Assembly: GCA_913056345.1 (NCBI GenBank) | Contig: CAJXMH010000001.1 | Location: forward strand, 124,001 to 188,000 | Length of the DNA: 64,000 nt | From: an uncultured Flavobacteriales bacterium | Lineage (GTDB): Bacteria; Bacteroidota; Bacteroidia; Flavobacteriales_E; Vicingaceae | Reading direction: 5' to 3' | Part shown: positions 24,925 to 36,207 of the stretch, piece by piece | How the letters are laid out: every line of letters begins with the position of its first letter | Numbering within the stretch: the stretch's first letter is position 1 | Notes under the pieces: generated by a model | Seen by the model: the letters and a program-made list of their open reading frames with translations, nothing else | Database searches by the model: none | Told to the model about the DNA's origin: nothing | Made by a program: the position numbers and the translations under genes

Positions 24925-25440
24925 TTAAGGCGCAACTGATATGCTCATTCTGGTATCAGCCCAATCTAAATGAATCATGCCATCTTCGTCAACCATGTAG
25001 GTCATGTTTTCAGTGTAATCAGTTTCGGAAGTCTTAGCTTTTACGCGTAGAGCGTCTTTACTTTGATCATACTTGTAGGCACCCCACTGCTTAGTTTCTT
25101 TGTTAAAAATAACAGTCCATACTCCATTATCTTCCGGAATTACAAATAAGGCATACTCTCCTGCAGCCAATGCTTTACCTTCAACCATTACATCTTTGCT
25201 AAAAGCGATGGTTGTCGCCTCATTAGCGCCTGCTCTCCAAATTTTTCCATAAGGTACAAGTTCACCGTAAATGGTTCTATCTTTTGCTCTTGGACTACTA
25301 TACTTAATGGTGATTTCAGCTTCGCCAATCATACCTTCAGCAGTTGCAGGTGGACTTGGGCGGTCAGCCATTTTTCCTTGAGCAAAACTTAAACTGCTTA
25401 GTATAAAAATACCGGCTAATAATAGTGTAATTCTTTTCAT
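24925..25440 (-). CDS. DUF2911 family exported protein
   Basis: From the chosen ATG the product is 171 residues with a signal peptide (residues 1-20, ending SFAQG). The mature part has 'SPPATAEGMIGEAEITIKYSSPRAKDRTIYGELVPYGKIWRAGANEATT', the signature of DUF2911, a Bacteroidota periplasmic or surface family of unknown function. An in-frame start 39 bases upstream would add a non-signal-like extension and is rejected. The gene ends at a strong terminator. Confidence 0.85.
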   Translation of the reverse strand: MKRITLLLAGIFILSSLSFAQGKMADRPSPPATAEGMIGEAEITIKYSSPRAKDRTIYGELVPYGKIWRAGANEATTIAFSKDVMVEGKALAAGEYALFVIPEDNGVWTVIFNKETKQWGAYKYDQSKDALRVKAKTSETDYTENMTYMVDEDGMIHLDWADTRMSISVAP

Positions 25441-25509
25441 TTTTCTTGTTTTTAATTTGGTTAAGCTAAGGTAACACAAAAAGGGGAGGAGTGTTGAGGG
25501 TAATTGTTT

Positions 25510-26364
25510 TTAGGAGTTCAAAAATGTTTGAGCGCCACTTTTTTCTATCTCGTAAGCAACTTTTTCTGCTTCATCTGAGCTGATAAGTTTTACAAGACTA
25601 TCCTTTCTAAGATTATTGAAATATTTCTTTTGATCCTTATTTTCCTTTGTGGGTTCGTCTGCAATTAAAAACATCTGGTTATCCTGCCCTTTAGAATAAC
25701 GATTAGAAAAATGATACATCACATTAAAGTAATTTCCTATCTCTTTTGTGATAGTAGGCATGGAAGATGAAAATAGGAGAGATTTAGCACTAATGATACT
25801 TCCATTTTTCCCAATACAATCTAAGTCAAAAGAAGAACTAATAGAAGGCACAATTTTCGGCTCTACTTTAAGATTTGTGTGTACTTGAGTCGAAACCTTA
25901 CTTAATAAATTAGATTCAATTTTAGTTTTAAAATTTCGGTCTGATTTTTTACTTTCTCGATCTTGCAGGCTTGCGCTATCAACGTATAACTTAAAAAGTT
26001 GGTTGATCAGACTAGTGTTTAATTCAGTGGCGATGTAATTGGCATCAGAAAAAAGCAATAGACCGTTGCTGTAGTTTTTTAAATAATTAAAATATTCACC
26101 ATCTAGGAGTTCATTTAGTTCAAATAGCCCTTTTGCTCTTTCTTGGTTTAGCTTATTGGTTTCTTCGATTTTGTCTGTTAATTCTTTGATTACAAAATCA
26201 ATTATTTTAGAACTATCGCCTAATAGACTGTTGATTAAATTCTTCTTTCTCTTAGAGCTTTTAAAGAAGAGACGTTTGCCATTTGAGGCAATGATTCCCA
26301 GACTCAAACGCTCGTGTGCGTTGGAGTTTGGAGAAATACTAATGATGGAATAAAATGATTTCAT
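25510..26364 (-). CDS. DUF3037-like partner protein of HipA-like kinase
   Basis: The 284-residue protein opens with 'FYSIISISPNSNAHERLSLGIIA', close to the 'YSI-x-R-x-x-P-x-x-x-x-E-x-x-N-I-G-V' opening of DUF3037, a family usually encoded next to HipA_2-type kinases. The rest is helical, Lys/Ser/Asn-rich and not recognised. Its start overlaps the stop of the upstream kinase by four bases (ATGA), so the pair is made together. I assign DUF3037 from that N-terminal pattern plus the gene order; the biochemical role is unknown. Substrate or immunity protein are both possible. Confidence 0.55.
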   Translation of the reverse strand: MKSFYSIISISPNSNAHERLSLGIIASNGKRLFFKSSKRKKNLINSLLGDSSKIIDFVIKELTDKIEETNKLNQERAKGLFELNELLDGEYFNYLKNYSNGLLLFSDANYIATELNTSLINQLFKLYVDSASLQDRESKKSDRNFKTKIESNLLSKVSTQVHTNLKVEPKIVPSISSSFDLDCIGKNGSIISAKSLLFSSSMPTITKEIGNYFNVMYHFSNRYSKGQDNQMFLIADEPTKENKDQKKYFNNLRKDSLVKLISSDEAEKVAYEIEKSGAQTFLNS

Positions 26365-27173
26365 GATGCGATATCTTTTACAATACTAAGGAATAATTCT
26401 TTTACCGATTTGTTTCTTTTTTGATCAAAAAGGTAGCTTCTAAGTGTTTTGCTTTCTGTTTCTGAAAGCCTTATTTCTTTTGGTAATTGGGCTAGAGTTG
26501 CATCGTAGTTTTTTTCAGTTTCTGCGATACAAAGGTAAGCTTTGTCAAGCAAATCTTGGGTCCATGCTTTTAAGCCCTTCTTTTTTGGGATTAAATTCTT
26601 TGCTGCACTAATGTTTAAAATAGAGTCATTAAAACTAAAGTTAGCTCCCCATGAGGCATTTAATTGTTGAAATGGTAAGGATTCAAAAGTGGCGGCATGG
26701 TCAATCGCCATTAGCTCTAAGCTATTATTCTTTGGACAAAAAAGGAGGTTTTGATTAGTGGGTTTTCGGTCACCATTGCTCGTCCAAATATCAAAATAGG
26801 CAATCTTAAATAGATCATCGAGGTTTAGCACCTTATTGCGACTGGGCTTTTTGTTAAAAGTGAAAAAACTTTGAGCATCAATACTATTGGCTATATGCTG
26901 AGAACCAAAGTGATAACCTAATATCTTACTGCCGTTTATTTTTTCTGCTAGGGTTTCATCTTCAATTTTCAAACAAGCGATATCGGGGCTAGCAATTTTC
27001 CAAACCTTTAAAAGTAAATGACATAAAAATTCCTTTTTAATGGAATGTAAATCTTTTTGATTGTGAGGTGTTTTTAAAACGTAGCGAGAAAAATCATCGG
27101 CAATCACCAAATAAGGGCTATGCCCTTTTGTGGTATATTGCTTTTCGATTGATATGACCTTGAGCTTTTTCAA
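26361..27173 (-). CDS. HipA-like kinase (HipA_2 type)
   Basis: This 270-residue protein has the HipA_2 kinase pattern: an ATP-lysine region 'SRYVLKTP', 'KKEFLCHLLL', a catalytic loop 'FDIWTSNGDRKPTNQNLLF' (D-x-W-x-x-N-x-D-R-x-x-x-N) and 'MAIDHAATF' as the metal-binding Asp equivalent. Unlike HipA, there is no N-terminal HipA_N domain and no HipB-like gene beside it; instead a DUF3037-like gene overlaps its stop. These kinases probably phosphorylate a protein or nucleotide target, but no substrate is known to me. It is separate from the canonical HipBA pair at 62-64 kb. Confidence 0.7.
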   Translation of the reverse strand: MKKLKVISIEKQYTTKGHSPYLVIADDFSRYVLKTPHNQKDLHSIKKEFLCHLLLKVWKIASPDIACLKIEDETLAEKINGSKILGYHFGSQHIANSIDAQSFFTFNKKPSRNKVLNLDDLFKIAYFDIWTSNGDRKPTNQNLLFCPKNNSLELMAIDHAATFESLPFQQLNASWGANFSFNDSILNISAAKNLIPKKKGLKAWTQDLLDKAYLCIAETEKNYDATLAQLPKEIRLSETESKTLRSYLFDQKRNKSVKELFLSIVKDIAS

Positions 27174-27327
27174 ATTTTATTTTTCCATCTTCCGCATCAT
27201 CATTCTTACCAACAGGCAGCTTTAGTAAAGTGCGGCTTCAACTTCTTCTTCCTTTTTTTCATGTCGATTTTTGCCGTCTTGTCAATGAAGTGCATAAAAT
27301 TTAAGTGATCTTTTTTTAGTAGCTCTT

Positions 27328-27360
27328 AGACCTTTCAGGTTTTTAAAACCTGAAAGGTCT
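27328..27360. repeat. Perfect 16-bp palindrome with one-base centre (REP-like)
   Basis: AGACCTTTCAGGTTTT, one T, then its exact reverse complement. Very similar CCTTTCAGGTTTT palindromes are dispersed between genes in many Bacteroidota. It may fold as a terminator-like hairpin in either direction. The remaining 27174-27617 sequence holds the short frame at 27421 and otherwise nothing I can identify. Confidence 0.8.
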
Positions 27361-27420
27361 TGCTACACTTTTATTTTTTATTACATATTGGTCACAGCCT
27401 TCAGCTTTCAAATTTTACAT

Positions 27421-27564
27421 TTACTCAACACTCTCCTCCACAATTCTAATCTCCTTCTCCGGAAACAGATAAAACATATCACAAGAATCACCAATCTGCG
27501 AGTGATTGGGGTTTACCTTAAGAAAGGCTTTATTTAAGGCTTGAGCTATTTTTTGTGCAGGCAT
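27421..27564 (-). pseudogene. 47-codon frame, possible remnant of a type IIG restriction-modification N-terminus
   Basis: The frame encodes 47 residues. The first 24 (AQALNKAFLKVNPN...) resemble the 'ALNKAFLK-x-K-P-x-R-x-x-I' opening of large Eco57I-like methyltransferase/endonuclease proteins common in Bacteroidota. After that the similarity stops, and the final 23 residues look unrelated. Such proteins are over 900 residues, so this would be a decayed fragment. It lies just upstream of the HipA-like kinase on the same strand. The resemblance is from memory of the family and needs a search. Confidence 0.3.
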
Positions 27565-27617
27565 TGAAATTGGTTTTCCAAGAAGACTGCAAGTTACAAA
27601 AAAGGGTAGACTAAAAA

Positions 27618-28295
27618 TTAGCTATGAATCGTCCATTCCTCCACCTCAATTACATTCCGCTGATTCAGGTAATTTTGGTAATCGCCTTCAAAAGCCATGC
27701 GTTTTTCGATCACTTCTGCATAATTGCCATTTAAACCGATAAGCAGTTCACTAATTTCTCTTACCGCATGCTGATCGCCGGCATGGGCAGTCCGATAATC
27801 ACATAATTTATGCTGATCTACAAAATCCGAAAATAGGGGATTAGCAGTACGATTAACTTGAATTCGAGCAGTCGCAATTTTGGCTGCGCTCAAGTCTAAA
27901 ATATCATCAAAAACAAAGAGGCATTCTTCAACTTTTAGCTGATTCTGCTTGAGGAGTAGAGTGAGCGATTCGCCTTTGTTTTTGGCTTTCAGCATTACTG
28001 CATCCAAGTGCTCACGTTGGGCAAATTGCAAGGCAGTTTGGTTATTCTCTCCACTAATAATGGCAGTAAAAGGAAGATGGCCATTTTGAAGCCAAAAACT
28101 AAAACGCAGCATATTTAAGCCCATACTATCAGGTTCTGAGAAAGGGCTGCCCGCTGCCTGACTTTTTACTCCAGCATTAAAAACTCCATCCCAATCGAAG
28201 ACCAAGGCTTTCACCTTCGCTAATTTGGCTTTCCAAGCTTCTTCCGAAAGAAAGAACTGACCTCCTAAGTTTTCAAACTGTGCTTGCAATTCCAT
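27618..28295 (-). CDS. KdsC-like HAD phosphatase
   Basis: The 225-residue HAD-fold protein has the nucleophile motif 'LVFDWDGVFNAG' (KdsC has DVDGV), a second motif 'ISGE', a lysine in 'KAKNKGES', and 'FDDILDL' with 'DQHAVREISELLI' near the end, as in KdsC, the Kdo-8-phosphate phosphatase. It is longer than usual KdsC (about 170-190 residues), with about 30 extra N-terminal residues and a C-terminal extension. The start chosen is the ATG one base after the stop of the upstream transaldolase-CBS gene. Context with kdsA supports a role in Kdo synthesis, but another eight- or nine-carbon sugar cannot be excluded. Confidence 0.75.
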   Translation of the reverse strand: MELQAQFENLGGQFFLSEEAWKAKLAKVKALVFDWDGVFNAGVKSQAAGSPFSEPDSMGLNMLRFSFWLQNGHLPFTAIISGENNQTALQFAQREHLDAVMLKAKNKGESLTLLLKQNQLKVEECLFVFDDILDLSAAKIATARIQVNRTANPLFSDFVDQHKLCDYRTAHAGDQHAVREISELLIGLNGNYAEVIEKRMAFEGDYQNYLNQRNVIEVEEWTIHS

Positions 28296-28296
28296 T

Positions 28297-29301
28297 TTAA
28301 ATGGTTTGTTGTACATCGATCAATCCCACGAAGCGCACTCCATCTTTAGCTACTAAAGTATCTACCTGCTTGGCGCTGAAAAGTTTTTGAGCATCAAAGA
28401 GGGTAGCGTTTAAGTCAATGGATAAAGGTTCTTGAGCTTCTAGGCTGCTGAGCTTGGTTTGATGAATATCCGCTCCTTGGTTTAAAAGTCGTCGAAGGTC
28501 ACCATCGGTAAAAACTCTCTGTAACTCTTCTGCTTGATTCATAACCGCTACTGCACCTAACTTGCTTTTAGTCATCAGTAATAAGGCGTCGTAAACCGTG
28601 GCATCTGCTGAAATACTCACGTTTTCAGTCCGAACTACATCACCAACTTTTTGGGTCAATAGTTTGGTGTCTTGCACAAACTGCTCGGTGCCAATAGCGG
28701 TAAAGTGGTTATCAGTCAGATTTTTCATCACCTTCCAAGGTACGGTAATGGTGTGTACGCCAATATTCAAAGCATTTTTTACGTGCTCCATGTGTCGAAC
28801 CGAAGAGAACATGATTTTGGATTGATAGCCGTACTTTTCTACCGTTTCCACACATTGTTCCACTAAACCAAGTGCATCATGACCTTGATCTTGCAAACGA
28901 CCAACCAAAGGACAAACATAGGTAGCTCCGGCAGCAAATGCCATATAGGCTTGCTGTAGGGTATAAACCAAATGCAGATTTACTTGAAAGCCTTCATTTA
29001 CCAGCAATTTGCACGCTCGGGTTCCTTCTAAGGAAATGGGAATTTTAAAGACAGTTTTGTCTTTATCTAAGCCCATTTTTACCATCCTTTTAGCTTCCGT
29101 GATGATCTCCTCAGCGCTATCACCTAAAGCTTCTACTTGAAGGATGTCGGTATACTTGGCAATTTCCAAGATCTGTTGGTCCACATCTTTAACCCCTTCT
29201 CGCACCATAAAAGTTGGTGTCGTGGTCAAACCGGTAAGGTAACCTAATTTGTGAGCGGCTTTTATCTCTTCTAGATTTACAGAGTCTAAGTATAATTCCA
29301 T
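28297..29301 (-). CDS. Transaldolase (TalC/FSA-like) fused to a CBS domain pair
   Basis: Residues 1-215 align with the small TalC/fructose-6-phosphate aldolase barrel ('MELYLD', 'FKIPISLEGTRA' with the Schiff-base lysine at 86, 'ATYVCPLVGRL', 'SSVRHMEHV'). Residues about 219-334 are two CBS motifs ('DATVYDALLLMTKSKLGAVAV', 'RVFTDGDLRRLL', 'FVGLIDVQQTI'). Several usual active-site positions differ: Thr28 where the family has Asn (TTNPS), His110 where it has Thr, and Leu132 where transaldolases have Phe and FSA has Tyr. Asp6, Glu57 and Asn108 are kept. It lies between kdsA and the kdsC-like gene, where a SIS-CBS isomerase KdsD would be expected. Confidence 0.85.
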   Translation of the reverse strand: MELYLDSVNLEEIKAAHKLGYLTGLTTTPTFMVREGVKDVDQQILEIAKYTDILQVEALGDSAEEIITEAKRMVKMGLDKDKTVFKIPISLEGTRACKLLVNEGFQVNLHLVYTLQQAYMAFAAGATYVCPLVGRLQDQGHDALGLVEQCVETVEKYGYQSKIMFSSVRHMEHVKNALNIGVHTITVPWKVMKNLTDNHFTAIGTEQFVQDTKLLTQKVGDVVRTENVSISADATVYDALLLMTKSKLGAVAVMNQAEELQRVFTDGDLRRLLNQGADIHQTKLSSLEAQEPLSIDLNATLFDAQKLFSAKQVDTLVAKDGVRFVGLIDVQQTI

Positions 29302-30105
29302 TTAGCGGTATTTTTTTTCTAAGTGATGAATTTCAATTAGGGGTTTGATGAATTCTTCCAGTTCGCTTAATTTAAGTTGACTAGCAGCATCGCAAAGCGC
29401 TTTAGGCGGATTGGGATGAACTTCTATGAACAGGCCGTCAATGCCCGCAGCTACTCCAGCTCTAGCAAGGGTAGGAAGGTACTGTCTCAAACCTCCTGAA
29501 GGATCTGAGCTGGGAATGCCGTACTTTCGGATGGAATGAGTGATATCAAAGATCACCGGATAGCCGCATTGTTTCAGGTCGTAAAAACTTCGTGGGTCGA
29601 CCACTAAATCATTGTAACCAAAAGTGAAGCCCCGTTCTGTCAATAAAATGTCTCGATTGCCACAGGCTTCGATCTTCTTTACCGGTTTGATCATATTTTC
29701 AGGAGCTAGAAACTGACCGTGTTTTAGGTTCACTGTTTTGCCCGTTTTGGCAGCTTCTGTTACTAGGGTGGTTTGCATGCAGAGGTAAGCGGGAATTTGG
29801 ATGATGTCTAATACTTCTGCGGCCGGCTTTACCTGTTCGGGAAAATGCACATCAGAAAGCACAGGCAGGTCAAACTCATCTTTCACTTTTTGTAATATGC
29901 GCAAGCCTTCTTCCAAACCCGGTCCACTGTAATAATCAATTGAGCTGCGGTTGTCCTTCATAAAAGAAGATTTGAAAACCAGATTAAGCTCGAGTTTTTC
30001 AGAAAGTTTTTTTAGTTCTTCAGCGGTTTTCATCATCACATCTTCCTCTTCGATCACACAAGGACCTGATATCAAGAAGAGTTCATTCCAGTCGTATAAG
30101 GGCAT
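29302..30105 (-). CDS. kdsA: 3-deoxy-8-phosphooctulonate synthase (Kdo-8-phosphate synthase)
   Basis: The 267-residue enzyme has 'FLISGPCVIE' near the start, 'LVFKSSFMKDNRSS', 'PVLSDVH', 'IQIPAYLCMQTTL', 'VNLKHGQFLAPENM' and 'FIEVHPNPPKALCDAASQL', the standard KdsA sequence landmarks. It condenses phosphoenolpyruvate and arabinose 5-phosphate to Kdo-8-phosphate for the lipopolysaccharide core. It is first in a three-gene run with no spacing before the transaldolase-CBS gene. A TACATTTAG box 26 bases upstream may be the operon promoter. Confidence 0.95.
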   Translation of the reverse strand: MPLYDWNELFLISGPCVIEEEDVMMKTAEELKKLSEKLELNLVFKSSFMKDNRSSIDYYSGPGLEEGLRILQKVKDEFDLPVLSDVHFPEQVKPAAEVLDIIQIPAYLCMQTTLVTEAAKTGKTVNLKHGQFLAPENMIKPVKKIEACGNRDILLTERGFTFGYNDLVVDPRSFYDLKQCGYPVIFDITHSIRKYGIPSSDPSGGLRQYLPTLARAGVAAGIDGLFIEVHPNPPKALCDAASQLKLSELEEFIKPLIEIHHLEKKYR

Positions 30106-30130
30106 CTTTTCAATTTGTTGTTTGCTGAGC

Positions 30131-30139
30131 CTAAATGTA
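30131..30139 (-). promoter_or_regulatory. Candidate -7 box for the kdsA operon
   Basis: Minus-strand TACATTTAG, one mismatch from TAnnTTTG, 26 bases before the kdsA ATG. No well-spaced -33 element. Confidence 0.3.
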
Positions 30140-30164
30140 ATTAAAGCAGTTTACTAAAGTGAAT

Positions 30165-31349
30165 TCAAAGTCGATCTAAAAGTTCTTTTATAGATTTTAT
30201 GCCTTTTTTTAAGTCTTGCTTTTCAATATTCAATGGCGGTGCCAATCGAAAGGCATTTGGTGTAGAAAGAAACCAGAATAACAATAAACCTTCCTGCAGT
30301 CCTTCAAGTACTACTTTTTTTACTGCTTCTTCATTTTCTAATTCTACGGCTAGCATTAATCCTATTCTTCGAATCTCTTTTATGGCAGGATGTTGTAGCG
30401 CTCTCTCTAGAAAGGCACCTTTTTCTTCCACTTGATCGAGGAGCTTTTCTTCTCGGATCACTTTTAATCCTGCTGCTGCTGCCGCGCAAATCAAAGGATG
30501 TCCACCAAAAGTGGTAATGTGACCTAGCATTGGATCAAAACTGAACTGTTCCATTAAATCTTTTGAAGCAGCTAAACAGCCAATTGGGAGTCCGGCCCCA
30601 AGCGCTTTACCTGCGGTAAGCAGATCAGGTGTAATGGGATAGTGTTGAAAGGCCCACATTTTAGCAGTTCTGCCCATGCCACATTGAATCTCATCTAAGA
30701 TAAGCAGTGCCCCAACCTCCGAGCAGCGCTCTCTTAAGGCTACAAGGTAAGCTTCATTAGCTATTCTGACTCCTGCATCACCTTGAACGGTTTCTAAGAT
30801 CACGGCTGCAGTATTTTCGTCAATTCGCTCTAAATCAATGTGATGATTGAGTTGGATAAATTCTATTTGAGGCAATAAGGGCTCAAAGGCTACCTTTTTA
30901 GCAGAATTGTAACTCACACTCAATGAACCGTGGGTGCTGCCGTGATAGGCGCCTTCGAATGCAATCAATTTTTTACGGCCTGTTACTCGCTTGGCAAGCT
31001 TTAAGGCTGCCTCATTAGCCTCAGTTCCCGAATTAACAAAGTAAAAAGAGTTTAAAGGTTCAGGTAGGGTTTGTAGCAATTCATTGGCTAAGTCGTTTTG
31101 AGCTGTTTGCTCAAATTCTCCATAAACCATTACGTGCAGGTGTTTTTCGGCCTGATCTTTAATGGCATTAATTACTTCGGGGTTTCCATGACCTAAGTTG
31201 CTTACCGCAATGCCTGAGATTAAATCAAGGTAGGCTTTACCATCATGGTCGTAAATATAAGACCCCTTAGCATGGTCGACTTTTATTCCGAAAGGGAAGG
31301 GAGTAGTTTGAGCAAGGTGCTGTTTAAAGAAGTCTTCTGTTTTATTCAC
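30165..31349 (-). CDS. Class III aminotransferase (acetylornithine/succinylornithine type)
   Basis: The fold-type I PLP enzyme has 'YDHDGKAYLDLISGIAVSNLGHGNPEV', 'FVNSGTEANEAALKLAK', 'GAYHGSTHGSLS', 'LILDEIQCGMGRT' and the PLP lysine in 'LLTAGKALGAGLPIG'. This pattern fits acetylornithine or related omega-aminotransferases; no arg genes adjoin, so the exact substrate is open. I use the GTG start of VNKTEDFF (394 residues). The next upstream ATG would add 18 residues, but it sits inside the terminator hairpin of the preceding gene and is rejected. Confidence 0.88.
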   Translation of the reverse strand: MNKTEDFFKQHLAQTTPFPFGIKVDHAKGSYIYDHDGKAYLDLISGIAVSNLGHGNPEVINAIKDQAEKHLHVMVYGEFEQTAQNDLANELLQTLPEPLNSFYFVNSGTEANEAALKLAKRVTGRKKLIAFEGAYHGSTHGSLSVSYNSAKKVAFEPLLPQIEFIQLNHHIDLERIDENTAAVILETVQGDAGVRIANEAYLVALRERCSEVGALLILDEIQCGMGRTAKMWAFQHYPITPDLLTAGKALGAGLPIGCLAASKDLMEQFSFDPMLGHITTFGGHPLICAAAAAGLKVIREEKLLDQVEEKGAFLERALQHPAIKEIRRIGLMLAVELENEEAVKKVVLEGLQEGLLLFWFLSTPNAFRLAPPLNIEKQDLKKGIKSIKELLDRL

Positions 31350-31382
31350 CTTGCAAAGGTAAGTCGGGAGAGGAGAAAAAGA

Positions 31383-31412
31383 AAAGAGGCGATGAAAATT
31401 CATCGCCTCTTT
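31383..31412 (-). terminator. Rho-independent terminator of the sigma-factor operon
   Basis: Stem AAAGAGGCGATGAA with its exact complement, a very short loop, and a T-rich tail on the minus strand, just after the stop at 31417. Confidence 0.85.
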
Positions 31413-32990: not shown

Positions 32991-33941
32991 TTAACGCTTC
33001 ATGACTCTCTTAACCGCCGCAACAATGTCCTTCGAACTCAAACCATATTTCTCGAACAATTCTTCAGGTTTTCCACTCTCTCCAAACTGATCGTTCACGG
33101 CTACCATCTCCATTGGAGTGGGCTGCTTCATCGCTAATAATTGTGCAATGCTATCTCCCAAGCCACCGTTTCTTTGGTGTTCTTCTGCAGTGACCACTCT
33201 TCCTGTTTTGGCTGCTGAACGTAAGACTGCTTCTTGGTCCAAAGGTTTAATGGTGTGAATGTTTATTACTTCAACACTTATGCCTTCTTCTTCTAATGCT
33301 TCCGCTGCCTTTAAACTTTCCCAAACACAATGTCCGGTAGCAAATATGCTGATATCGTTTCCTTCTTGAAAGGTGAGGGCTTTCCCGATTTCGAAAGTTT
33401 GGTTTTCAGGCGTAAAAACTGGCCACTTGGGTCTGCCAAAGCGCAGGTAAACCGGACCTTCATGTTCTGCTATGGCAAGGGTCGCAGCTTTGGTTTGATG
33501 ATAATCACAAGGGTTGATCACGGTCATGCCTGGAAGCATCTTCATTAAGCCAATGTCTTCCAATATTTGATGCGTAGCGCCATCTTCACCTAGAGTAAGC
33601 CCTGCATGCGAGGCGCAGATCTTCACATTTTTTCCGCTGTAAGCAATTGATTGCCTGATCTGATCATAAACCCTTCCGGTAGAAAAGTTGGCGAATGTAC
33701 CTGTGAACGGAATTTTACCGCCAATGGTAAGACCTGCGGCAACTCCCATCATGTTAGCCTCTGCGATACCCGCTTGGATAAAACGTTCGGGGAAGGCATC
33801 TCTAAAAGCATCCATTTTAAGACTGCCGGTTAAGTCTGCGCAAAGAGCAACAACATTAGGATTTTGCTTTCCCAATTCTAGTAAACCTGCTCCAAATCCT
33901 GAGCGTGTGTCTTTTTTTTCGGTGTAAGCGTATTTTGCCAT
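32991..33941 (-). CDS. Transketolase, C-terminal subunit
   Basis: The 316 residues match the PYR and C-terminal domains of transketolase: 'TRSGFGAGLLELG', 'ALCADLTGSLKMDAF', 'FIQAGIAEANMMGVAAGL' with the catalytic glutamate, 'SHAGLTLGEDGATHQ', and 'VVTAEEHQRNGGLG'. The N-terminal (TPP-binding) half is encoded at 35362-36207. Together they make one functional enzyme of the pentose phosphate pathway, a split form known in many bacteria. Unusually, a VWA protein gene lies between the two halves; it ends four bases before this start. Confidence 0.92.
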   Translation of the reverse strand: MAKYAYTEKKDTRSGFGAGLLELGKQNPNVVALCADLTGSLKMDAFRDAFPERFIQAGIAEANMMGVAAGLTIGGKIPFTGTFANFSTGRVYDQIRQSIAYSGKNVKICASHAGLTLGEDGATHQILEDIGLMKMLPGMTVINPCDYHQTKAATLAIAEHEGPVYLRFGRPKWPVFTPENQTFEIGKALTFQEGNDISIFATGHCVWESLKAAEALEEEGISVEVINIHTIKPLDQEAVLRSAAKTGRVVTAEEHQRNGGLGDSIAQLLAMKQPTPMEMVAVNDQFGESGKPEELFEKYGLSSKDIVAAVKRVMKR

Positions 33942-33945
33942 GGTG

Positions 33946-35316
33946 CTAAAATTTTATTTGGGTGCTTTGCCCTGATTGTATGGTGAATGATTCTTCTTTA
34001 GTGTAGATGCTTTGCTTAGCATTGATTGACCTGAATACCAAATGGTAACTACCCGGTTGCAGTACAATGCTTTGTCTAGTTGATTTTTCTGATAGGTCGC
34101 AAACCCAAACTAATTCATCTGATTTTTTCAGGAATATGCTGCCATAACCTTTTGAATTATTGCTAATCGTTACAATTCCTGCTTGCGGTATTTCAACTGT
34201 AGTGGTATGGCTTTGCGCAATATTAACATCTTTAATATTGGTTCTTGGAAGGGTTAAAACTTCTAGGTCATACTTACCGATCAAGTAGCGTTGAATGTGA
34301 TCAAAATCTTGAATGATCATGATTTCTTGTTCTCCTGCTTTTCTCACAATGGCTTTCAAATCTTCGTATTCATTGTAGCCATTCATTTTCAGTTCGAGGT
34401 CTCCACGTGGTGCGTCTAAAGCAATGATGTTATGCTTACCTGCAGTAAGTGTAATGTTCTTTTTTTCTACAGGGGGAACAGTGTGAACTACTAGGTCATA
34501 GGATCCTAATGGATCAATTGGGATGGTATCAGGGTTTCCGCGACTATTAATGGTGTGGATAAAGTTGTAGCGGGCTTGTTTAGAAAAAGCATCATAAAAG
34601 GTCATGGCTACGTTAGTCTCATTTGGTCGGCCAAGTTCATCGAGTAAGTTGACTTGAGCGGTAGTGTTGTTAAGGGCTTGCGAGATTACAATGTCAAGTA
34701 CATTTTTAAAACTTACTTCGTCTTTTGCATCGTAGAAGTTACCTATGCACTTAAAAGCGTCCATAATATCAGGTTCAAGCCCTAAGCCAATCACAAAAGG
34801 CTTAAGTATAACCCCTTTTTTCTGCAAGGCAAGTGATACGGCACAAGGATCACCATCACATTCCTCAATGCCGTCGGTAATTAAAATGATCACATTTCGG
34901 CAATTGGTGCAAGAAGGAAAGTCTTTTGCCGCCTGTTCAAGTGAGTAGGCGATCAGGGTGGTGCCTTTTGGACGAATGCTTCGCAGTTTGCTTTTGATTT
35001 TTGCATGATTGCCTTTCGCAAAAGGAACCTCAAGCTTGGTGTCTTTGCAGTTCCTGCCGTCAGAGCTTACACTGTTTTGATGTCCGTATGCTCTTAAGGC
35101 TAATTCTACTTCATCAACGTTTTCTAAGCTATCAACCAAGTTACGAAGTAGACGAGTGGCTACTTGCATCTTTTGCCCGTTTTCCCAGCGGGCATACATG
35201 CTTTGTGAACCATCAAGTACAAAGAGTATTCGGGTTTTTTGGGGTTCGTTTTGTGCCTCGGTAGTAGATAGAAGACCAAAAAGGCAAAAGAAGAGTATGC
35301 TAATGGATAACCTCAT
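33946..35316 (-). CDS. Exported VWA domain protein between split transketolase genes
   Basis: The 456-residue protein has a signal peptide (to TEAQ) and a von Willebrand A domain with an intact metal site, 'ILFVLDGSQSM' (DxSxS), plus 'PKGTTLIAYSLE' and 'ILITDGIEEC'. An even set of cysteines (C-x-x-C in 'CTNCRN', 'CDGDPC') suggests disulfides, consistent with export. The remainder is Ig-like beta structure. VWA proteins bind other proteins or matrix through Mg2+. The gene lies between the two transketolase subunit genes (45 bases after one, 4 before the other) and must be co-transcribed, with no obvious functional link. Confidence 0.85.
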   Translation of the reverse strand: MRLSISILFFCLFGLLSTTEAQNEPQKTRILFVLDGSQSMYARWENGQKMQVATRLLRNLVDSLENVDEVELALRAYGHQNSVSSDGRNCKDTKLEVPFAKGNHAKIKSKLRSIRPKGTTLIAYSLEQAAKDFPSCTNCRNVIILITDGIEECDGDPCAVSLALQKKGVILKPFVIGLGLEPDIMDAFKCIGNFYDAKDEVSFKNVLDIVISQALNNTTAQVNLLDELGRPNETNVAMTFYDAFSKQARYNFIHTINSRGNPDTIPIDPLGSYDLVVHTVPPVEKKNITLTAGKHNIIALDAPRGDLELKMNGYNEYEDLKAIVRKAGEQEIMIIQDFDHIQRYLIGKYDLEVLTLPRTNIKDVNIAQSHTTTVEIPQAGIVTISNNSKGYGSIFLKKSDELVWVCDLSEKSTRQSIVLQPGSYHLVFRSINAKQSIYTKEESFTIQSGQSTQIKF

Positions 35317-35361
35317 AAATCATTTTGTTTGGTAAGGATATTTGAATTCCAAATACCATAC

Positions 35362-36207
35362 CTAAAAATCGCCAAGGGTTTCTTCAAGCTGCGCCAATGC
35401 AGCTTCTTTTTGCTCATCATTGGGTGGAATGCCATGCCATTTGTGGCTTCCCATCATAAAATCAACTCCTTGGCCCATTTCGGTTTTCATTAAGATTACC
35501 ACAGGTCTGCCATGTCCCGTTCTATCCTTAGCAGTTCTAAGTCCATCTAAAACATCGGCCATTTTGTTGCCGTCCATTTCTAGCACTTCCCAGCCAAAAG
35601 CCTCAAATTTTGCTCTCAGATTACCTAGGGAAAGAATATCTTCTACATCTCCATCGATCTGTCGATTGTTCCAATCAATTGTAGCAATTAAATTATCTAC
35701 TTTTTGGTGAGCAGCAAATAGAGCAGCTTCCCAAATTTGTCCTTCTTGCAATTCACCATCGCCGTGCAGACTATAAACCAAATTCGAATCTTGATTCAAT
35801 TTTTTAGTAAGAGCAGCACCACAGGCAACTGATAGGCCCTGACCCAATGATCCACTAGCAACCCTAACGCCTGGCAAACCTTCATGGGTAGTAGGGTGGC
35901 CTTGTAACCTAGAATCAATTTTCCTGAAAGTGCTCATTTCTTCTAAAGGGAAATAGCCACTTCTTGCCAAAACACTGTACCAAACGGGCGAAATGTGTCC
36001 GTTAGACAAAAAGAAAAGGTCTTTTTCTTCTCCATCCATTTCAAAATTTTGAGGATTGTGCTTTAAGATCTCAAAATAGAGCGCAGTAAAATAGTCAGCA
36101 CAGCCCAATGAGCCACCGGGATGACCTGATTGGACGGCATGGACCATTCTAACAATATCTCTTCTGACTTGAGAGGCAATTTTTTCTAATTCTTGATGGT
36201 TAGGCAT
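35362..36207 (-). CDS. Transketolase, N-terminal subunit
   Basis: The 281-residue product is the thiamine-diphosphate-binding half: 'VHAVQSGHPGGSLGCADYFTALYFEIL', 'LSNGHISPVWYS', 'GSLGQGLSVACGAAL' and the TPP motif GDGELQEGQIWEA ... NN. With the product of 32991-33941 it forms transketolase. It is first in the operon. A conserved order of N-terminal then C-terminal genes is preserved except for the intervening VWA gene. Confidence 0.92.
   Translation of the reverse strand: MPNHQELEKIASQVRRDIVRMVHAVQSGHPGGSLGCADYFTALYFEILKHNPQNFEMDGEEKDLFFLSNGHISPVWYSVLARSGYFPLEEMSTFRKIDSRLQGHPTTHEGLPGVRVASGSLGQGLSVACGAALTKKLNQDSNLVYSLHGDGELQEGQIWEAALFAAHQKVDNLIATIDWNNRQIDGDVEDILSLGNLRAKFEAFGWEVLEMDGNKMADVLDGLRTAKDRTGHGRPVVILMKTEMGQGVDFMMGSHKWHGIPPNDEQKEAALAQLEETLGDF

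Follow-up and report, generated by a model that had tools for sequence, protein, structure and literature searches.

The kdsA2, fusion and phosphatase genes

The window, a stretch of 64,000 nucleotides from an uncultured Flavobacteriales bacterium, contains on its minus strand three genes arranged head to tail: kdsA2, a transaldolase-CBS (Tal-CBS) fusion gene and a HAD phosphatase gene. The first (29302..30105) encodes a second Kdo-8-phosphate synthase, KdsA2, of 267 residues, which matches TIGR01362 with 344 bits (cut-off 314). It abuts, with a gap of zero bases, the gene for the 334-residue fusion protein (28297..29301), in which Pfam and NCBIfam profiles, residue comparisons and an AlphaFold2 model distinguish a TalC/FSA-type barrel (residues 1-212; 28666..29301) and a KdsD-type pair of CBS domains (residues 216-334; 28297..28656). 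The third gene (27618..28316) encodes a divergent KdsC-like HAD phosphatase of 232 residues if read from the first ATG, in which case it overlaps the fusion gene by 20 bases, or of 225 residues from the second Met (28295), which leaves a gap of one base. The coordinates confirm the gene order and the zero- and one-base gaps described in the initial annotation, the latter gap being counted from the Met at 28295.

The barrel was recognised by PF00923 over residues 3-202 (Pfam E 1e-37; 130 bits, cut-off 27) and by Foldseek, which retrieved bacterial transaldolases (best 1vpx, E 8.7e-21, and also 3s0c and 3r8r). With this fold and an invariant Schiff-base lysine, Lys86 (codon 29044-29046, minus strand), it belongs to the PF00923 superfamily. 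It lies outside the TalC/FSA equivalog TIGR00875, where it scored 167 bits against a cut-off of 245.95, and no NCBIfam equivalog matched the fusion. The C-terminal part has the CBS pair typical of KdsD, with its FTDGDLRR motif (Pfam CBS match, E 6e-12). The KdsD profiles TIGR00393 and NF008141 both match it, the former (KpsF/KdsD) over residues 214-328 with E 2.3e-18 and in the CBS part only; the SIS catalytic domain of KdsD is absent and the PF00923 barrel is found instead. Among solved structures it is closest to the CBS parts of the arabinose-5-phosphate isomerases 4o9k, 3k2v and 3fna, and in a tree of CBS domains the fusion pairs form their own clade, for which that tree does not resolve the nearest CBS group. 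The AlphaFold2 model has a mean pLDDT of 86.6 and a pTM of 0.58, the relative placement of the domains being less certain than each domain by itself.

Across the complete active homologues of the fusion (about 100), Asp6, Glu57, Lys86, Asn108, Arg135, Ser167 and Arg169 are all retained, and Thr28, Thr30, His110 (codon 28972-28974, minus strand), Cys130 and Leu132 are all fixed where TalC has Asn, Ser, Thr, Ser and Phe, respectively (N28T, S30T, T110H, S130C and F132L). The last of these positions (132/131) is Phe in transaldolases and Tyr in aldolases, and Leu in every complete active homologue. The seven fusion residues singled out in the initial annotation (Asp6, Thr28, Glu57, Lys86, Asn108, His110 and Leu132) were each read correctly. 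In KdsA2, residues K55, N62, R63, S64, D95, K138, R168, H202, E239 and D250 are kept and Ala61 is replaced by Asp. The HAD protein scored 23 bits with the KdsC profile TIGR01670, below the cut-off of 107, and its nearest solved structure is KdsC (4um5, E 1.8e-5). It retains the motifs DWDG, SG and FDDILD, and DDxxD is present in all 65 of its 65 homologues; judged by profile and motifs, it is KdsC-like at a distance only.

Directly downstream of the operon are a HipA_2-type kinase gene (PF20613) and a second gene that overlaps it (25510-27173), the latter without a Pfam match and DUF3037-like by eye. The pair, with a G+C content of 33.5% compared to 39.6% for the window, looks like a recent insertion. 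Class-III aminotransferase and DUF2911-like genes flank the operon (24925-31403), and the same two genes lie together beside the canonical kdsA of genome G153 (L219:2-1422), which suggests insertion of the kdsA2 set and of the HipA pair next to a kdsA neighbourhood of older date. Elsewhere in the window a transketolase is split into two genes, for an N part (35362-36207) and a C part (32991-33941); between them, on the same strand, lies a gene whose product was judged VWA-like by eye (33946-35316; whole region 32991-36207).

Distribution of the fusion relative to KdsD and KdsA

The initial annotation had presumed that KdsD is missing and that the fusion occurs in its place, and had proposed a proteome search for KdsD whose success would speak against this. 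In the window's own genome (2.9 Mb, 99.7% complete) that search returned a normal KdsD, a 321-residue SIS+CBS+CBS protein adjoining tatC on contig C40 (321 bits, cut-off 203.7), and the premise is wrong for this genome. Further contigs carry a second KdsA (KdsA1; C25, 373.5 bits), a true KdsC (C27, 141 bits), KdsB (C3) and a normal TalC (C36), the last of which rules out the fusion as the sole transaldolase. Tetranucleotide use of the KdsD, KdsC, KdsA1 and KdsB contigs correlated with that of the window at r 0.97-0.99, the same as for the window compared with itself, and this rules out contamination as the source of the double Kdo set. Since a canonical KdsD is present, the fusion fills no hole here; its operon is a second, co-inherited set beside a full canonical one. 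KpsF and GutQ duplicate KdsD in E. coli, and by analogy the second Kdo branch is comparable to that duplication.

Across the class, the idea that the fusion takes KdsD's place fared better. We scanned an evenly drawn sample of 149 genomes of the class for fusion, KdsD and KdsA, and found the fusion in 28, the other 27 being 33-60% identical to that in the window. Among the 112 genomes with KdsA (six of the KdsA calls being below cut-off or partial), 86 had KdsD only, 24 the fusion only, one both (the window's) and one neither, where eight KdsD calls in the sample, two of them full-length and six SIS-only or fragmentary, scored under the curated cut-off. The genome with neither, G013, has a fusion fragment beside HAD that runs off the contig end (L197, L198), and part of a KdsA at the edge of a different contig. 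This near-perfect exclusion among KdsA-bearing genomes (Fisher p 3.6e-22 for the 112 genomes, with kinship ignored) supports the fusion taking the place of KdsD. Fusion and KdsA occurred in 11 families of the sample. Families f5, f11 and f38, like f1 to which the window belongs, include sister genera with KdsD instead of the fusion, and because each of f5, f11 and f38 has genera of either kind, the exchange must have taken place several times.

A second sample comprised 50 fusion genomes reached via 80 named loci among the matches listed. KdsA was present in all 50 and KdsD above the cut-off was absent from 46, one of them with a 113-residue fragment. Three of the four genomes with KdsD as well are close relatives as regards the fusion (L107, L108 and L111; 70-73% identity to the window's), and two of these three also have two strong KdsAs. 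Hence, the subgroup that includes the window's genome holds both the KdsD and the fusion sets. Species that carry the fusion and lack KdsD include Raineya orbicola, Thermonema rossianum and Flammeovirga pacifica. A separate normal TalC is usual in fusion genomes. The fusion is carried by at least 546 confirmed stretches in Bacteroidota, and these, being further to the homologues across the class, rule out a chance gene fusion or an assembly error. The survey also turned up, in G028 (L247:1166-2131) and G105 (L248:1659-2645), diverged KdsD-like proteins of SIS-CBS type that narrowly miss the TIGR00393 cut-off and share their region with KdsA.

The operon arrangement recurs in the 80 homologous loci among the matches listed, with the same KdsA in 49 and the same HAD in 63 within the fetched flank, and is therefore not due to chance; KdsA lies directly upstream on the same strand in 42 of the 80. 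In a KdsA tree, the 67 KdsAs of fusion genomes or loci group without exception in a single pure clade (support 0.71), outside which fall 33 KdsAs of KdsD genomes, the second KdsA of the window's genome and the second KdsAs of the genomes with both sets, those of G000, G149 and G153 among them. The A61D change, which gives KDNRS in place of the usual KANRS, is found in 67/67 KdsA2s and in none of the other KdsAs of the tree set. Moreover, the fusion and KdsA2 trees are correlated (r 0.86, Mantel p 0.0005, 60 loci). On the evidence of these trees, fusion and KdsA2 have been passed on together, as would be the case if the product of one were the substrate of the other.

In family f3, three genomes contain a fusion of distant similarity (33-41% identity) that has lost most of the active site and has Arg, Arg and Ser, respectively, in place of Lys86; KdsA is absent from exactly these three. 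Their sequences look as if the barrel had decayed after its partner KdsA was lost, with the CBS pair remaining. Lys86-less Tal-CBS proteins with a well-kept CBS pair were noted at L063:9888-10889, L064:9277-10281 and L065:9427-10437, in genomes that lack KdsA, and are possibly CBS sensors on a dead barrel.

Proposed product and chemistry of the fusion

We consider it likely, from the genomic patterns above, that the fusion supplies arabinose 5-phosphate (Ara5P) to KdsA, performing the function of KdsD through a catalytic domain unrelated to it. From the observed gene order, residues, exclusion of KdsD and co-inheritance with KdsA2, we infer a reaction, a donor and a CBS ligand as follows. The operon would be a self-contained Kdo branch, in which the fusion would provide D-arabinose 5-phosphate to KdsA2, KdsA2 would join it with phosphoenolpyruvate to give Kdo-8-phosphate, and the HAD protein would take off the phosphate. 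Lys86 would form a Schiff base, probably with a two-carbon donor (a glycolaldehyde unit), that adds to glyceraldehyde 3-phosphate (G3P); the threo stereochemistry of the enzyme family would give exactly the arabinose configuration, and His110 would probably act in the proton-shuttle role of FSA Tyr131. Feedback would probably come through the CBS pair, by its sensing of CMP-Kdo or a related end product, a hypothesis that starts from 4o9k as a structure containing CMP-Kdo.

Could the operon instead make a different 2-keto-3-deoxy sugar acid, with the fusion forming some other aldose phosphate for use by the KDNRS-type KdsA2? The A61D change, exclusive to KdsA2, adjoins the substrate-binding Asn-Arg-Ser and the substrate may therefore differ, and the genome of the window and some of the closest fusion relatives retain a canonical set alongside. 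Yet all other checked substrate and metal residues of KdsA are retained in KdsA2, which is by the tree the only type of KdsA in KdsD-less genomes, and KdsB scores above the cut-off in almost all of these; in 13 of the KdsD-less genomes, the search for KdsC-like proteins found the divergent HAD alone. The operons of relatives provide a further indication of the sugar. In the same stretch as the fusion, kdsB occurs at 21 of the 80 loci and kdnA plus kdnB at 14, the best solved matches of the kdnA and kdnB products being the Kdo8N transaminase 5k8b (1.5e-129) and the Kdo 8-oxidase 5k8c (4e-125). KdnB, going by the name of the solved enzyme and its family, presumably acts on Kdo, so that the product of KdsA2 and HAD in these sister operons would most simply be Kdo and the substrate of KdsA2 Ara5P. 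The presence of kdsB, kdnA and kdnB in sister operons makes another C8/C9 sugar, as raised in the initial annotation, less likely, and we regard a different sugar acid as improbable.

Supply of Ara5P by the fusion still allows more than one chemistry. Formation by an aldol reaction of glycolaldehyde is the route that we put forward tentatively. E. coli FsaA/B have a reported preference for glycolaldehyde as donor and G3P as acceptor, yielding Ara5P (PMC6298115), and there is further precedent for this reaction by FSA (PMC9947464), so the aldolase family can already carry out such a reaction, and with the stereochemistry required. In FSA, protons are shuttled mainly by Tyr131, which together with Gln59 and Thr109 also binds the catalytic water, and the donor pocket is bordered by Asn28 and Ala129 (PMC13259622); at position 129, Ser favours dihydroxyacetone and Ala less polar donors (PMC3962226). 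Set against these roles, the pattern at the five changed positions of the fusion suggests a donor other than dihydroxyacetone, with His110 replacing Tyr131 as proton carrier. The aldol route from glycolaldehyde and G3P is chemically sound and would extend to the fusion by analogy. Free glycolaldehyde is scarce in cells, and no glycolaldehyde-making gene was found linked to the operon.

The loss of the equivalents of FSA Tyr131 and Thr109 could also mean different chemistry, and the fusion might make Ara5P as a Lys-dependent ribose 5-phosphate 2-epimerase or ribulose 5-phosphate isomerase with His110 as second base. Such an enzyme would not depend on a scarce donor, since its substrates, ribose 5-phosphate or ribulose 5-phosphate, are the ordinary precursors, and with the same product it fits the genomics equally well; it would also accommodate the change of the aldolase shuttle residue (Tyr131/Phe) to Leu and the new invariant His at the position of the catalytic water (PMC13259622). 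Against it, the entire Schiff-base set of the aldolases (Lys86, Asp6, Glu57 and Asn108) and the phosphate site (Arg135, Ser167 and Arg169) are retained. We also know of no isomerising member of the TalC/FSA family. We hold this option to be rather unlikely; as the same role by other chemistry, its probability overlaps with that given to Ara5P supply. Least probable is that a different isomerase, for instance GlmS, is the source of Ara5P, eukaryotic GlmS-type enzymes being able to isomerise ribulose 5-phosphate to Ara5P and rescue the E. coli K-12 kdsD gutQ double-deletion mutant TCM15 (PMC11301363), and that the fusion is an ordinary transaldolase or regulator: general GlmS-type SIS proteins leave the near-perfect exclusion of KdsD unexplained, and an ordinary transaldolase is at odds with the separate normal TalC of fusion genomes, the five fixed active-site differences and the TIGR00875 score (167 against a cut-off of 246 bits).

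Relation to known systems

Kdo is a near-universal part of LPS, and KdsD/KpsF/GutQ is treated as its first committed step and a drug target. The fusion resembles KdsD/KpsF/GutQ (SIS plus CBS pair, TIGR00393) in the type of its CBS pair and in its inferred pathway position, and the two are mutually exclusive across genomes; it differs in having no SIS domain and, as its catalytic part, a Schiff-base TIM barrel. With TalC/FsaA (PF00923, TIGR00875) it shares the fold, the Schiff-base lysine, about 35-40% identity to the TalCs of the class and, in the case of FsaA, which is able to form Ara5P out of glycolaldehyde and G3P, the proposed reaction, but it has five active-site changes, an added CBS pair, an operon with kdsA and a TIGR00875 score below the cut-off. 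Synthetic Ara5P aldolase pathways (PMC6298115, PMC9947464) employ the same proposed reaction via E. coli FsaA, but are engineered, use KdsD to proceed towards ribulose 5-phosphate, and are not a natural Kdo route. KdnA/KdnB (5k8b, 5k8c), encoded in sister operons, are absent from the window's operon.

Ara5P formation by an aldolase is, to our knowledge, known only as a side activity of FSA and in engineered pathways, and the open-licence literature on transaldolase-CBS enzymes, on KdsD loss in Bacteroidetes and on CMP-Kdo and CBS domains yielded nothing on the fusion. The sampled carriers mostly have KdsA and KdsB without KdsD, a gap in gene content that the fusion fills, and across many Bacteroidota the fusion probably constitutes a second, unrecognised route to the Kdo precursor. 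In its fullest form, which we advance as a possibility falling somewhat short of an even chance, it would be a natural class I Ara5P aldolase with a His proton shuttle and CBS control, one that displaced KdsD several times in Bacteroidota and forms a C-C bond rather than isomerising. If true, the missing Kdo step in KdsD-less genomes would be explained, likely annotations as 'transaldolase' would be corrected, and a natural, regulated Ara5P-forming aldolase may become available for biocatalysis.

A further combination was seen in G133, G059, G143 and G037, genomes with no KdsA or KdsD by our search, where a ribulose-phosphate-3-epimerase-fold barrel is joined to a CBS pair in proteins of 334-340 residues (L235:1434-3927, L236:910-3388, L237:4118-5140 and L238:1385-2389). 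At L235 and L236 the epimerase-fold-CBS gene is followed by genes for a DAHP-synthase-family protein and a KdsC-like phosphatase, with a similar cluster at L187:4739-7364, and these epimerase-fold-CBS proteins may provide a third route, to the same sugar acid or to one related to it.
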